Source of the DNA: Parvularcula lutaonensis
Lineage (GTDB): Bacteria; Pseudomonadota; Alphaproteobacteria; Caulobacterales; Parvularculaceae
Direction of reading: 5' to 3'
NCBI RefSeq assembly: GCF_014651915.1
Contig: NZ_BMXU01000002.1
Span: 377,507 to 441,506 of the forward strand
Length of the DNA: 64,000 nt
Positions 48,708 through 53,396 of this stretch are shown here, in pieces. The notes beneath the pieces are model-generated. The model saw only the letters and a program-made list of their open reading frames with translations. It was not told the origin of the DNA and did not search any database. A program made the position numbers and the translations under genes. The number at the start of each line of letters is the position of its first letter. The stretch's first letter is position 1.

Positions 48708-48790
48708 CTCCCCGCACTCGCCGAGGGGCACCCCACTCAGGGGTTGAGACGCACCCTTAGAACCTGATCCGGTTAAGACCGGCGGAGGAA
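48708..48790 (+). promoter_or_regulatory. TPP riboswitch (thi-box) upstream of thiC
   Basis: Consensus elements in order: GAGGGGCACCCC (48723-48734), TTGAGAC (48744-48750), ACCCTTAGAACCTGAT (48753-48768), and a GGTTAAGACCGGCGGAGG segment (48771-48788). The closing stem P1 can form between CTCCCCGC (48708-48715) and GCGGAGG (48782-48788). The latter contains a Shine-Dalgarno sequence (GGAGG) seven bases before an ATG at 48796, so ligand binding should hide it and block translation. Confidence 0.93.
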
Positions 48791-48795
48791 CGGCC

Positions 48796-48924
48796 ATGAT
48801 GGACCAAGCCGCGCAGCCTTGCGCGACATTCCGGGGCACTCCCCCGTTCCCTCTGTCTTGGGGCAGAGCGGCGCTTCTCGCCGCCTGCGGCACGACCTTC
48901 ACCACTTTCTCAGACCACGCATAA
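48796..48924 (+). CDS. Putative 42-residue leader peptide between TPP riboswitch and thiC
   Basis: An ATG seven bases behind the riboswitch-embedded GGAGG opens 42 codons that end in TAA (48922-48924), 12 bases before the thiC ATG. The product begins MMDQAAQPCATFRGT and ends GTTFTTFSDHA, with no known family. Its stop overlaps AAAGGGG, the likely ribosome-binding site of thiC, so translation of the leader could be coupled to thiC. A six-base hairpin (GCGGCG-CTTCT-CGCCGC, 48868-48884) lies within it. Whether it is translated is unproven; the position is the main evidence. Confidence 0.55.
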   Translation: MMDQAAQPCATFRGTPPFPLSWGRAALLAACGTTFTTFSDHA

Positions 48925-50854: not shown

Positions 50855-51721
50855 ATGGCCCAGAAACCTTTCGGCGGAACGCATACATCTAGAAAACTCA
50901 ACGCTATCGCTGAGTACCTTAAGGTATACAATATTGCGCTCAAGAATCAGAGCTTTTCTAGGGTCTATTTCGATGCTTTCGCGGGGTCTGGAGAAATTCC
51001 CTCGACGGCTGATGAGCCCGCACTGCTCCGCGACGTTTTAGACAAGGACGACGTGATAGAGGGATCGGCAGAGCGGGCACTGCAAACACGCCCGGCGTTC
51101 GATCGATACGTGTTCTCTGAAAAGAACGGCCGGAAACTGACGGCGCTCAAGCAGCGTGTCGATGACGTTGGCTTGTCGGAAAAAAGCACCTTGCTCAGGA
51201 AAGACGCCAATGAAGCTGTCCGTGATTTCTGTCAAAGCACTGATTTCAGGACGACAAGAACTGTTATGTTCTTCGATCCGTATGGGAATCAGATTTCGTT
51301 CGAAACCCTGGAGATGATCGCTGACACCAAGGCGATCGATCTTTGGTACCTGTTTCCAGCGGGCTTGGGCGTTTTTCGTCAAGTGTCCCGTGATGGTCAG
51401 ATCCATCCCACTCACGTGGACTCGCTGAACTCTCTATACGGAACTTCTGACTGGGCTGAGCGTTTCACGCGAGAATCGCAGGTTGAGGATTTGTTCGGAT
51501 CTGTTAACCAGTCCGAAAGGCTCGTAACGCCAGACTCAGCAACTGAGTATATGCTTGAGCGTATACAGAGCAAATTCTCGGGCTATGTCCACGATGGCTG
51601 GCTACCGCTTGGTCCTAATGGACGGCATTGGTACTCATTGATTTTTGCCTCGGCGAATCCGGAACCGAAAGCCATTGGACTTTGTCGAAGACTGGTCAGT
51701 GCAGTCTATAAGAACGCGTGA
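50855..51721 (+). CDS. tcmP: Three-Cys-motif partner protein TcmP-like
   Basis: A 288-residue protein that matches the three-Cys-motif partner family by pattern. RVYFDAFAGSGEI near residue 41 resembles motif I of class I SAM-dependent methyltransferases, and TVMFFDPYGNQISFETLEMI near residue 136 resembles a catalytic DPPY-type motif. LWYLFPAGLGVFRQ follows. The stop and the start of the next gene overlap in TGATG, so translation is coupled. Codon and base use are clearly poorer in G+C than the surroundings (25 GC of 60 in 51241-51300, against 45 of 60 in 50461-50520), suggesting horizontal transfer. Methyltransferase activity is inferred only. Confidence 0.78.
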   Translation: MAQKPFGGTHTSRKLNAIAEYLKVYNIALKNQSFSRVYFDAFAGSGEIPSTADEPALLRDVLDKDDVIEGSAERALQTRPAFDRYVFSEKNGRKLTALKQRVDDVGLSEKSTLLRKDANEAVRDFCQSTDFRTTRTVMFFDPYGNQISFETLEMIADTKAIDLWYLFPAGLGVFRQVSRDGQIHPTHVDSLNSLYGTSDWAERFTRESQVEDLFGSVNQSERLVTPDSATEYMLERIQSKFSGYVHDGWLPLGPNGRHWYSLIFASANPEPKAIGLCRRLVSAVYKNA

Positions 51722-52479
51722 TGGCAACGATATCTGACATTGAGTGGACTGAAGTTACTTGGAACCCGGTGACAGGCTGTTCGATCATGTCGGCGGGATG
51801 CACCAACTGCTACGCGATGCGGATGGCGGCAAGATTGCAGTCGATGGACCATCCAAGTTATCGTAATCTGACAAGAAAATCTGGTCGGCGACATGTTTGG
51901 ACCGGAAATGTCAACCTAGTCGAGCATGCGCTCGAACTGCCGCGTTCGTGGAAAAAGCCGCGGATCGTGTTCGTAAATTCGATGTCAGATCTGTTCCATC
52001 CGAATGTCCCATTCGAATTCATCGAACAGGTGTGGTCAGTCATGGAAGTTGAAAGCCGCCACACATTCCAGCTTCTAACCAAGCGGCCAGACAGAATGCG
52101 TGAGTTTCTGATTAGCCGACAACGCGCAGTCGCGCGCAACGTCTGGATAGGCACTTCGGTAGAAGACGCTCGTGTGAAAGATCGCATTCGTTTTCTTCGC
52201 CAATGCCCTGCAGAAGTGCGGTTCGTTTCCTTTGAGCCACTGATCGGGGATGTTGGGCGTGTAAGCCTCAGCGGAATCGATTGGGCAATTGTTGGTGGCG
52301 AGTCGGGCCCCAACTCCCGCCCAATGAGTGAGGCTTGGGTCAATCGAATCTACGACTTGTGCCGAGCGTCCGGGGTGAGCTTCTTTTTCAAGCAATGGGG
52401 TGGCGTGAACAAAAAGAAGACTGGTCGGGAGTATCGAGGCCAAACTTGGGATGAGATGCCTGTGCGTGAATTCGCTTGA
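51721..52479 (+). CDS. Gp37/Gp68-like (DUF5131) three-Cys-motif protein
   Basis: A 252-residue protein. Near the N-terminus, WNPVTGCSIMSAGCTNCYAM has Cys20, Cys27 and Cys30 in a C-x6-C-x2-C arrangement that resembles a radical-SAM cluster site. IVFVNSMSDLFHPNVPF, TFQLLTKRPDRM, VRFVSFEPLIGDVG, WAIVGGESGPNSRPM and FFFKQWGG are the family blocks, seen in phages and bacteria, where it commonly sits next to TcmP. Iron-sulfur or SAM chemistry is an inference from motif shape. It overlaps tcmP by one base and shares its lower GC content. Confidence 0.82.
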   Translation: MATISDIEWTEVTWNPVTGCSIMSAGCTNCYAMRMAARLQSMDHPSYRNLTRKSGRRHVWTGNVNLVEHALELPRSWKKPRIVFVNSMSDLFHPNVPFEFIEQVWSVMEVESRHTFQLLTKRPDRMREFLISRQRAVARNVWIGTSVEDARVKDRIRFLRQCPAEVRFVSFEPLIGDVGRVSLSGIDWAIVGGESGPNSRPMSEAWVNRIYDLCRASGVSFFFKQWGGVNKKKTGREYRGQTWDEMPVREFA

Positions 52480-52544
52480 GCGGCCCCTCTGGTAGCAAAT
52501 TTCAGCTAGAAGTCGTTCGCAGCGACTAATCCCCGAGTAATAAC

Positions 52545-52556
52545 TTATCCCCGCCC
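52545..52556 (+). repeat. TTATCCCCGCCC motif, copy 1
   Basis: Identical to 53072-53083. At the same distance downstream (14 bases after the motif) both copies have a TA-containing hexamer, TATTCT here, which could be a -10 element. This copy lies 36 bases before the structured segment at 52592. Confidence 0.55.
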
Positions 52557-52591
52557 CACCAACCTGCGCTATTCTCCCAGTGTCAGCAGGA

Positions 52592-52721
52592 GCGGGGTTC
52601 GGCGGATACGCCGGAGGGGTCCCTTTCTCCTTGTTCGCCTGCTGGTCCATGAGCCCAACTCAGGCACGGCGTGCCGGCGGGGCGGACAAGAGGGGGTCAT
52701 CCCCCTCGAGGCCGAACCCGC
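52592..52721 (+). ncRNA. Candidate structured RNA between the TcmP cassette and DUF167
   Basis: An unusually strong set of paired segments: GGGTTCGGC (52595-52603) with GCCGAACCC (52711-52719) as the outer stem; a 10-bp stem CTTGTTCGCC (52630-52639) with GGCGGACAAG (52681-52690), extended past a bulged G by TGCTGG/CCGGCG (52640-52645, 52674-52679); GAGGGGG-TCAT-CCCCCTC (52690-52707); and smaller hairpins TGAG-CCCAA-CTCA (52650-52662) and GGCAC-GGC-GTGCC (52663-52675). I match it to no riboswitch, 6S, SRP or tmRNA. The strand is unknown. It could also be a leader of the DUF167 gene 43 bases further on. Confidence 0.5.
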
Positions 52722-52763
52722 CGGGCTCTGGCCTGGCGATTGTTGTTGCCGTAGGGACCCGCC

Positions 52764-53051
52764 ATGGCTGCCCGTCTTCTCCCCGTCCGTGTCACGCCCG
52801 GTGCGAAGAGGCCTTCCGTGGGCGGATGCTATGATGCGCCCTCCGGCGCGCGACTGATCGTCCGGGTAAGCCAGCCTCCCGAGGGCGGCAAGGCGAACAA
52901 GGCCGTCTGCGCGGCTGTGGCCGAGGCGCTGGGCCTGCCGCCGCGCGCCGTCACCGTCGCCAGGGGCCAGACCTCCCGCGACAAGACCCTCGCCATCGAC
53001 GAAGCGCCCCCAGACTTCGACGCGCGTGTGCAGAGGCTCCTCGACGCCTGA
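52764..53051 (+). CDS. DUF167 (YggU) family protein
   Basis: A 95-residue protein with the DUF167 core: LLPVRVTPGAKRPSVGG at the front and QPPEGGKANKAVCAAVAEAL in the middle, then VTVARGQTSRDKTLAID. Structures of this family are known but a function is not. The start at ATG 52764 has no strong Shine-Dalgarno sequence. A structured, probably transcribed element lies upstream. No yggT or proC-type neighbour is present, which is unusual. Confidence 0.9.
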   Translation: MAARLLPVRVTPGAKRPSVGGCYDAPSGARLIVRVSQPPEGGKANKAVCAAVAEALGLPPRAVTVARGQTSRDKTLAIDEAPPDFDARVQRLLDA

Positions 53052-53071
53052 GCGACCTATACGCGCAAGAG

Positions 53072-53083
53072 TTATCCCCGCCC
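53072..53083 (+). repeat. TTATCCCCGCCC motif, copy 2
   Basis: Second copy, 52 bases before the spike-base start codon. Downstream at the matching distance stands TAGGCT. Possible promoter or operator element of the head-spike operon; function not shown. Confidence 0.55.
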
Positions 53084-53135
53084 GATCCAGCGCAGTTAGG
53101 CTGTGTGCCGACGAAGATTTTAGCAGGGATAACCT

Positions 53136-53396
53136 ATGACCGACCTCACAACCCTCCGGCCGGGCCTCGAGAGTCCGCCCAGCCGTGCTTTCAGTGTGGG
53201 CCCCGACGACGCCGCTGACCTCATCACGCCCATCCGTGGCTTGATGGTCACGACCGGCGGTGACGTTTCCGTGATGACGACGGGCGGTGACACTGCCACC
53301 CTTCCGAGTCTCCAGTCAGGTGTTCAGTACGCTGTTCTAGCCACGCGAATCCTTGCCACAGGAACGACCGCGACAGGTATTGTCGGCCTCGCGTGA
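53136..53396 (+). CDS. Head-spike base protein, RCAP_rcc01079 (GhsA-like)
   Basis: An 86-residue protein that resembles the spike base family: DDAADLITPIRGLMVTTGGD near residue 24, then GGDTATLPSLQSGVQYAVLATRILATGTTATGIVGL with the last block typical of the family. In Rhodobacter capsulatus, the homologue rcc01079 (GhsA) attaches spikes to gene transfer agent heads, and the genes lie outside the main GTA cluster. Here too no capsid genes are near. It has a GCAGGGA Shine-Dalgarno sequence. Its stop overlaps the next ATG in TGATG. Confidence 0.85.
   Translation: MTDLTTLRPGLESPPSRAFSVGPDDAADLITPIRGLMVTTGGDVSVMTTGGDTATLPSLQSGVQYAVLATRILATGTTATGIVGLA

Follow-up and report, generated by a model that had tools for sequence, protein, structure and literature searches.

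A candidate small RNA gene under a gene transfer agent promoter in Parvularcula lutaonensis, and structured RNA families dispersed behind the same type of promoter

Gene transfer agents (GTAs) are tamed virus-like DNA couriers, and they have so far been studied as protein machines. The closest described systems are the RcGTA regulon (activator GafA) and the CcGTA regulon (GafY and GafZ), which have in common with the system described here a DnaA-like activator (here a candidate), an activated promoter before TerS-TerL, and accessory spike and DUF2793 genes that are located elsewhere in the genome. GafY of Caulobacter is homologous to domain IV of DnaA and binds many operon promoters (PMC9632790), and the DNA-binding domain of GafA from R. 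capsulatus is likewise DnaA-like (PMC9638019). The GTA promoter that GafYZ drives in Caulobacter is followed by an untranslated leader of 229 nt, and a strong terminator of GC-rich repeats with inverted repeats is passed by RNA polymerase with the help of GafZ (PMC11150451). The papers found on these two regulons describe no structured non-coding RNA as a target, whereas most of the promoter sites considered here appear to drive such RNAs. Furthermore, a literature search, with subscription papers and preprints mostly outside its scope and hence not proof of absence, found no non-coding RNA tied to any GTA regulon.

The window (the whole 64,000-nt stretch of Parvularcula lutaonensis DNA that was analysed) contains the features collected in Table 1. 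The original prediction described a base-paired element in a non-coding gap between a TcmP cassette and DUF167, and both parts of this placement hold: the DUF5131 gene lies on one side and DUF167 on the other, and the 284-nt gap between them (52480-52763) contains no plausible gene. The interval from thiC to the spike-base gene is a variable site, occupied here by the TcmP/DUF5131 pair and in Parvularcula maris (L151:1415-3441) by a type II-A retron reverse transcriptase and an NDT effector; a TPP riboswitch is found 5' of thiC (window 48714-48807; Rfam RF00059, 69.9 bits). Parvularcula mediterranea has a related spike-base locus.

Table 1. Features in and around the focal element (positions in the window)
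Feature	Position	Strand	Details
TcmP/DUF5131 pair	50855-52479	same strand as element	PADLOC candidate defence system PDC-M41
GTA-type promoter	52543-52575	+	box ACTTATCCCCGCC at 52543-52555, -10 TATTCT at 52570-52575; layout ACTTATCCCCGCC-N14-TATTCT
Predicted structured RNA, ~160 nt	52582-52748	+	folded with and without terminator; ends inferred from promoter and terminator
5' hairpin P1	52584-52590 with 52638-52644	+	CAGCAGG with CCTGCTG; predicted in full transcript; competes with the long arm first proposed
Focal element as first delimited	52592-52721	+	folded segment between DUF5131 gene and DUF167
Outer stem	52592-52602 with 52711-52721	+	forms in the prediction only if the RNA begins at 52592
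Loose match to type-1 core hairpin	52650-52665	+	TGAGCCCAACTCAGGC; regular-expression match, C.A mismatch, no outer stem
7-bp hairpin with TCAT loop	52690-52707	+	kept in all folds
Intrinsic terminator	52719-52748	+	CGCCGGGCTCTGGCCTGGCG then ATTGTTGTTG
DUF167 (YggU family) gene	52764-53051	+	PF02594, E 2e-22; directly 3' of element
Second GTA promoter copy	53070-53102	+	AGTTATCCCCGCC ... TAGGCT; precedes spike-base gene
GTA head-spike base protein gene, RCAP_Rcc01079 family	53136-53396	+	NF048002 (NCBIfam), E 1e-24

The strongest feature of the element is its promoter, recognized from the outset as a promoter-like motif and now assignable to a class. The box is present in 9 copies in this genome and in 19, 18 and 8 copies in three other Parvularcula species, versus no copies in the reversed control of these Parvularcula genomes, and it is frequent in parts of the remaining family, with up to 26 copies in one genome. 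A TAnnnT sequence lies exactly 27 bases from the start of the box at 79 of 142 Parvularculaceae sites, with 0.13 expected per position, and when up to two mismatches were allowed 30 promoters were found in this genome as against 2 in the control. From the spacing of its parts, transcription is predicted to start at ~52582-52584.

The arrangement ACTTATCCCCGCC-N14-TAnnnT is common to GTA structural genes, with the box preceding TerS-TerL, DUF2793 and spike-base genes; both the class of the promoter and its link to GTA genes are computed results. In this genome one copy lies 5' of a small TerS-like ORF with the large terminase next in line, and another is embedded in the prohead protease gene, which has the portal and capsid genes on either side; the TerS/TerL and portal-protease-capsid genes with these promoter copies are the GTA cluster. 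DUF2793 genes with the promoter in front were seen in other genomes. A GTA promoter within the prohead protease coding sequence occurs in three genomes (L052:1001-1033; also L026 and L030), and this promoter includes a TTA codon, which is unusual for such GC-rich genes. A candidate activator is also present. Besides DnaA, this genome encodes a second protein with DnaA domain IV (PF08299), 131 aa in length (L153:1447-1842) and ~17 kb from the GTA cluster, which agrees with GafY as described (PMC9632790) and is likely the GafY of this genome. The promoter box resembles a DnaA box, and the GafY-like protein would be expected to bind it. Directly behind the promoter in two genera are similar small proteins with an ALGGPLA motif (L220, which has no NCBIfam match, and L087), which are possible GTA accessory genes.

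The class of the promoter also bears on whether the RNA is part of the TcmP/DUF5131 cassette. The candidate defence genes of this cassette are adjacent to the element and on the same strand, but the promoter belongs to the GTA regulon and such an association is highly improbable; the link is largely refuted by six DUF5131 relatives in the family that have no such promoter downstream, the best match being 11/16 versus 16 here.

Downstream, an intrinsic terminator was computed, the region holding 2 terminator-like sites where 0.3 would be expected, and promoter and terminator together bracket a non-coding stretch in the layout of an sRNA gene. The terGTA sequence of Caulobacter crescentus is alike in that a GC-rich sequence rich in inverted repeats, together with a terminator, lies downstream of a GTA promoter, yet terGTA is built from three direct repeats of 150 bp that come after the main cluster's first gene (PMC11150451), whereas the focal element is intergenic, consists of one RNA and ends in an intrinsic terminator ahead of DUF167.

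Folding adds less than the flanking signals do. The complementary segments of the original prediction are all in place, and the comparison with shuffled sequence that it proposed gave, for 52592-52721 on the plus strand, -71.0 kcal/mol and a z-score of -3.05 against dinucleotide shuffles, equalled by 1 of 200; the minus strand was unremarkable (z -1.37). In a scan of the 64 kb, -71 kcal/mol was reached by 0.1% of the 984 130-nt windows and a z-score of -3.05 or better by 2.1%, and because so many windows match the z-score the fold alone is no proof of an RNA. The nested fold first proposed is obtained when 52592-52721 is folded; it does not survive inclusion of the predicted 5' end, since the transcript is predicted to start at ~52582, not 52592, and from there the outer stem and the 16-bp long arm give way to the 5' hairpin P1. 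The stem of P1 alone is not significant in the focal RNA (78/300 shuffles as good), and its position is near that of a stem in many other RNAs behind the GTA promoter. The transcript predicted from ~52582 has a z-score of -2.96 if the terminator is included and -1.9 if it is left off. The latter value, and the 2.1% of windows that reach -3.05, speak for GC-rich intergenic DNA with a chance fold and no function as RNA; however, composition does not explain an exact regulon-type promoter and a terminator, and we regard chance folding as distinctly unlikely. The focal element appears credible through its surroundings, the promoter and the terminator, with folding alone being weak evidence.

Behind many other copies of the promoter there is no gene but a non-coding stretch of 300-500 nt, beyond which the next gene may lie in either orientation. 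These stretches hold dispersed RNAs of ~300 nt that are structured, show strong covariation, number up to about 20 per genome, and form at least two families, termed type 1 and type 2. Within one genome the RNA parts are near-identical, and the spacer between box and -10 is often variable. The core hairpin of type 1 (stem-NGA-GCYR-loop-YGGC-stem, or NGA-GCYR-N4..8-YGGC) was found in 43 of 141 downstream regions, versus none of 141 upstream or reverse-complement controls. Across 16 distinct type-1 sequences, 26 cells were changed on both sides, and the covariation score of 0.520, compared to 0.153 in shuffles, was attained by none of 500 shuffles; additional type-1 copies in this genome were recovered by a relaxed promoter search. 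Type 2 is marked by a conserved core, CGAGRGYTTnAAGYGCT...GGCCYCTCG, and a search of 62 genomes of the family with its model, R2, gave 14 copies in this genome and 11, 6, 5 and 2 in four other Parvularcula genomes, with no hit in the remainder. A 170-nt domain from another genus comprises 51 pairs, of which 19 show compensatory changes (0/500 shuffles as good); model R3 (g7 RNA, 170-nt 3' domain) had hits in only two of 249 genomes of the order, with 11 copies in either one, at 83-198 bits. The 34 representative loci behind the promoter that were compared with Rfam match no family.

An independent check on the promoter is provided by 30 RNA copies that were found by the RNA models without use of the promoter. 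A candidate promoter is present upstream of every one, mostly 120-126 nt from the core, with scores of 12-15 of 16; sequence downstream of the same copies scores 9-12, and shuffles have a mean of ~10 and a maximum of 13. Four of the 30 score 12 and overlap with the best controls, and the others exceed their own downstream control. Promoter and RNA belong together.

Dispersed copies were located at many sites in this genome (L010, L018, L024, L029, L034, L166-L175, L197, L205, L210, L212, L216), several of them with partly common flanks, as if a DNA unit had been duplicated, and in other Parvularcula (L003, L009, L012, L020, L031, L002, L021). A second genus of the family (G015 and G033; L096-L107, L110-L118) has 11 copies of a version of its own, whose well conserved fold spans >250 nt and combines a 5' hairpin with a long 3' stem that carries an AU-rich loop. 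In one further genome (G021; L069-L094), many of the 26 box copies are followed by a different repeat with TCGTTCGAAA and GCGATTCGCG palindromes. Ten exact promoter sites occur in a genome from another family of the order (G176), and half of them lie within 200 bases of the end of a contig, which fits a repeat of high copy number. Non-coding stretches behind the promoter in other genera (L132, L134, L139-L142, L145, L147) carry the boxA-like GCTCTTTGACA or a similar sequence; boxA is an antitermination element of rRNA leaders, and the resemblance could link GTA promoters to Nus-factor antitermination.

The dispersed RNAs are like REP/MITE-like repeats in their many similar intergenic copies per genome, and differ from them in that the copies have a promoter of the regulon type and an RNA fold with covariation; terminal inverted repeats and target duplications are not established here. 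In the focal RNA, the pair of 3' hairpins bears a weak likeness to the SorX sRNA (RF02784) that is at chance level, scoring 18.4 bits against a gathering threshold of 46.6.

How the focal RNA relates to these families is a separate question. The original prediction assigned it to no known RNA class, and the Rfam search that it recommended is in agreement, as Rfam 15 at gathering and relaxed thresholds gave nothing above chance. No tRNA or tmRNA was detected in the focal sequence, BLAST against plasmids and phages gave no match, and among 61 genomes, from collections with one genome per species, BLASTN found, besides the element itself, the promoter stretch only, in two, and no homologue of the focal RNA. 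The covariation that the original prediction called for is seen in the other RNAs behind the promoter. Model R1 (type 1) has no match in the focal RNA, 52650-52665 included, where the core with its outer stem is absent. The best R2 score is 6.2 bits, without the conserved core, compared to 42-85 bits, and one of 33.5, for other copies; the best R3 score, 6.6 bits, is likewise no match. Pairwise alignment of the focal RNA to six type-1 copies was no better than to shuffles, and alignment to type-2 copies was not significant. Membership in the dispersed families is unproven given the lack of a match to R1-R3 and a loose likeness to one type, and the formal test leans to no. What stands of the proposal that the element may be a new structured RNA is thus a regulon-type promoter, a terminator and the lack of an Rfam match; the exact fold, with the predicted 5' end, does not.

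The loose likeness is to type 1, and it is possible, if on the doubtful side, that the focal RNA is a diverged or shortened type-1 copy with the same promoter and P1 position, a degenerate core and its own terminator. P1, the loop motif GGATnCGYC and a GAGCY-N7-GGC core occur jointly in 1 of 6000 shuffles, and P1 with the core at none of 54 other promoter sites, although these features were chosen after looking at the sequence; 2 of the 6 type-1 copies of this genome pass the same test. Shortened copies are known from relatives, for example L060, but the missing R1 match, the alignments at shuffle level and the core without an outer stem count against a type-1 origin. Such an origin is compatible with the preferred reading of the element as a small RNA gene, and would make the focal RNA a decaying or specialised copy. 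A locus in another Parvularcula genome, L019, was dropped as a close analogue; the gene behind it encodes a GDT1/UPF0016-like transporter, and the L019 box is palindromic with the left flank.

The main rival to a small RNA gene is a leader with a conditional terminator, in which transcription would normally end at the terminator and only polymerase loaded with the GTA anti-terminator GafZ would continue into DUF167, perhaps as far as the spike genes. The promoter comes first, then the structured RNA, the terminator, DUF167 and the spike genes, all on one strand, in an outline that by analogy would resemble that of Caulobacter, and a leader role is possible because DUF167 starts ~15 nt after the terminator tail; if polymerase passes the terminator, the DUF167 transcript is possibly shared with the focal RNA. 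However, the spike genes have a promoter copy of their own (53070), DUF167 is not among the known GTA genes, and DUF167 relatives in two other Parvularcula genomes lack such a leader, for which reason a link of the focal RNA to DUF167 was rejected. Nor can a leader role be general, because most other copies of the RNAs are intergenic with the next gene in either direction. We consider the leader unlikely.

The reading that we prefer, and hold to be somewhat probable, is that the focal element is a small RNA gene of the Parvularcula GTA regulon. In cells switching on GTA production, we infer, a GafY/GafA-type activator would bind the DnaA-box-like sequence at the -35 position, and RNA polymerase would then make a GC-rich, strongly folded RNA of ~160 nt that extends from ~52582 to the terminator. 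This RNA would be one of ~20 loci in the genome where the promoter drives a non-coding structured RNA and not a protein, and it would most likely act in trans in GTA-producing cells.

What is new here is mainly the set of promoter-linked RNA families, computed from the genomes, to which the focal element led. More tentatively, and with less than even confidence, GTA production in the Parvularculaceae may have an RNA arm, comprising up to ~20 dispersed genes per genome for large structured RNAs, in at least two new families, that one promoter type would switch on together with the GTA, with the focal RNA a divergent member. With the promoter rule and the covariance models, this can be tested directly in strains that are in culture, for example Parvularcula mediterranea. 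If such an arm exists, its RNAs could have a part in packaging, in lysis or in taking over the host, or they could be selfish elements living off the GTA, and if most GTA-promoter sites make structured RNAs, a major route of gene transfer in the alphaproteobacteria would have an RNA side that is still unexplored.
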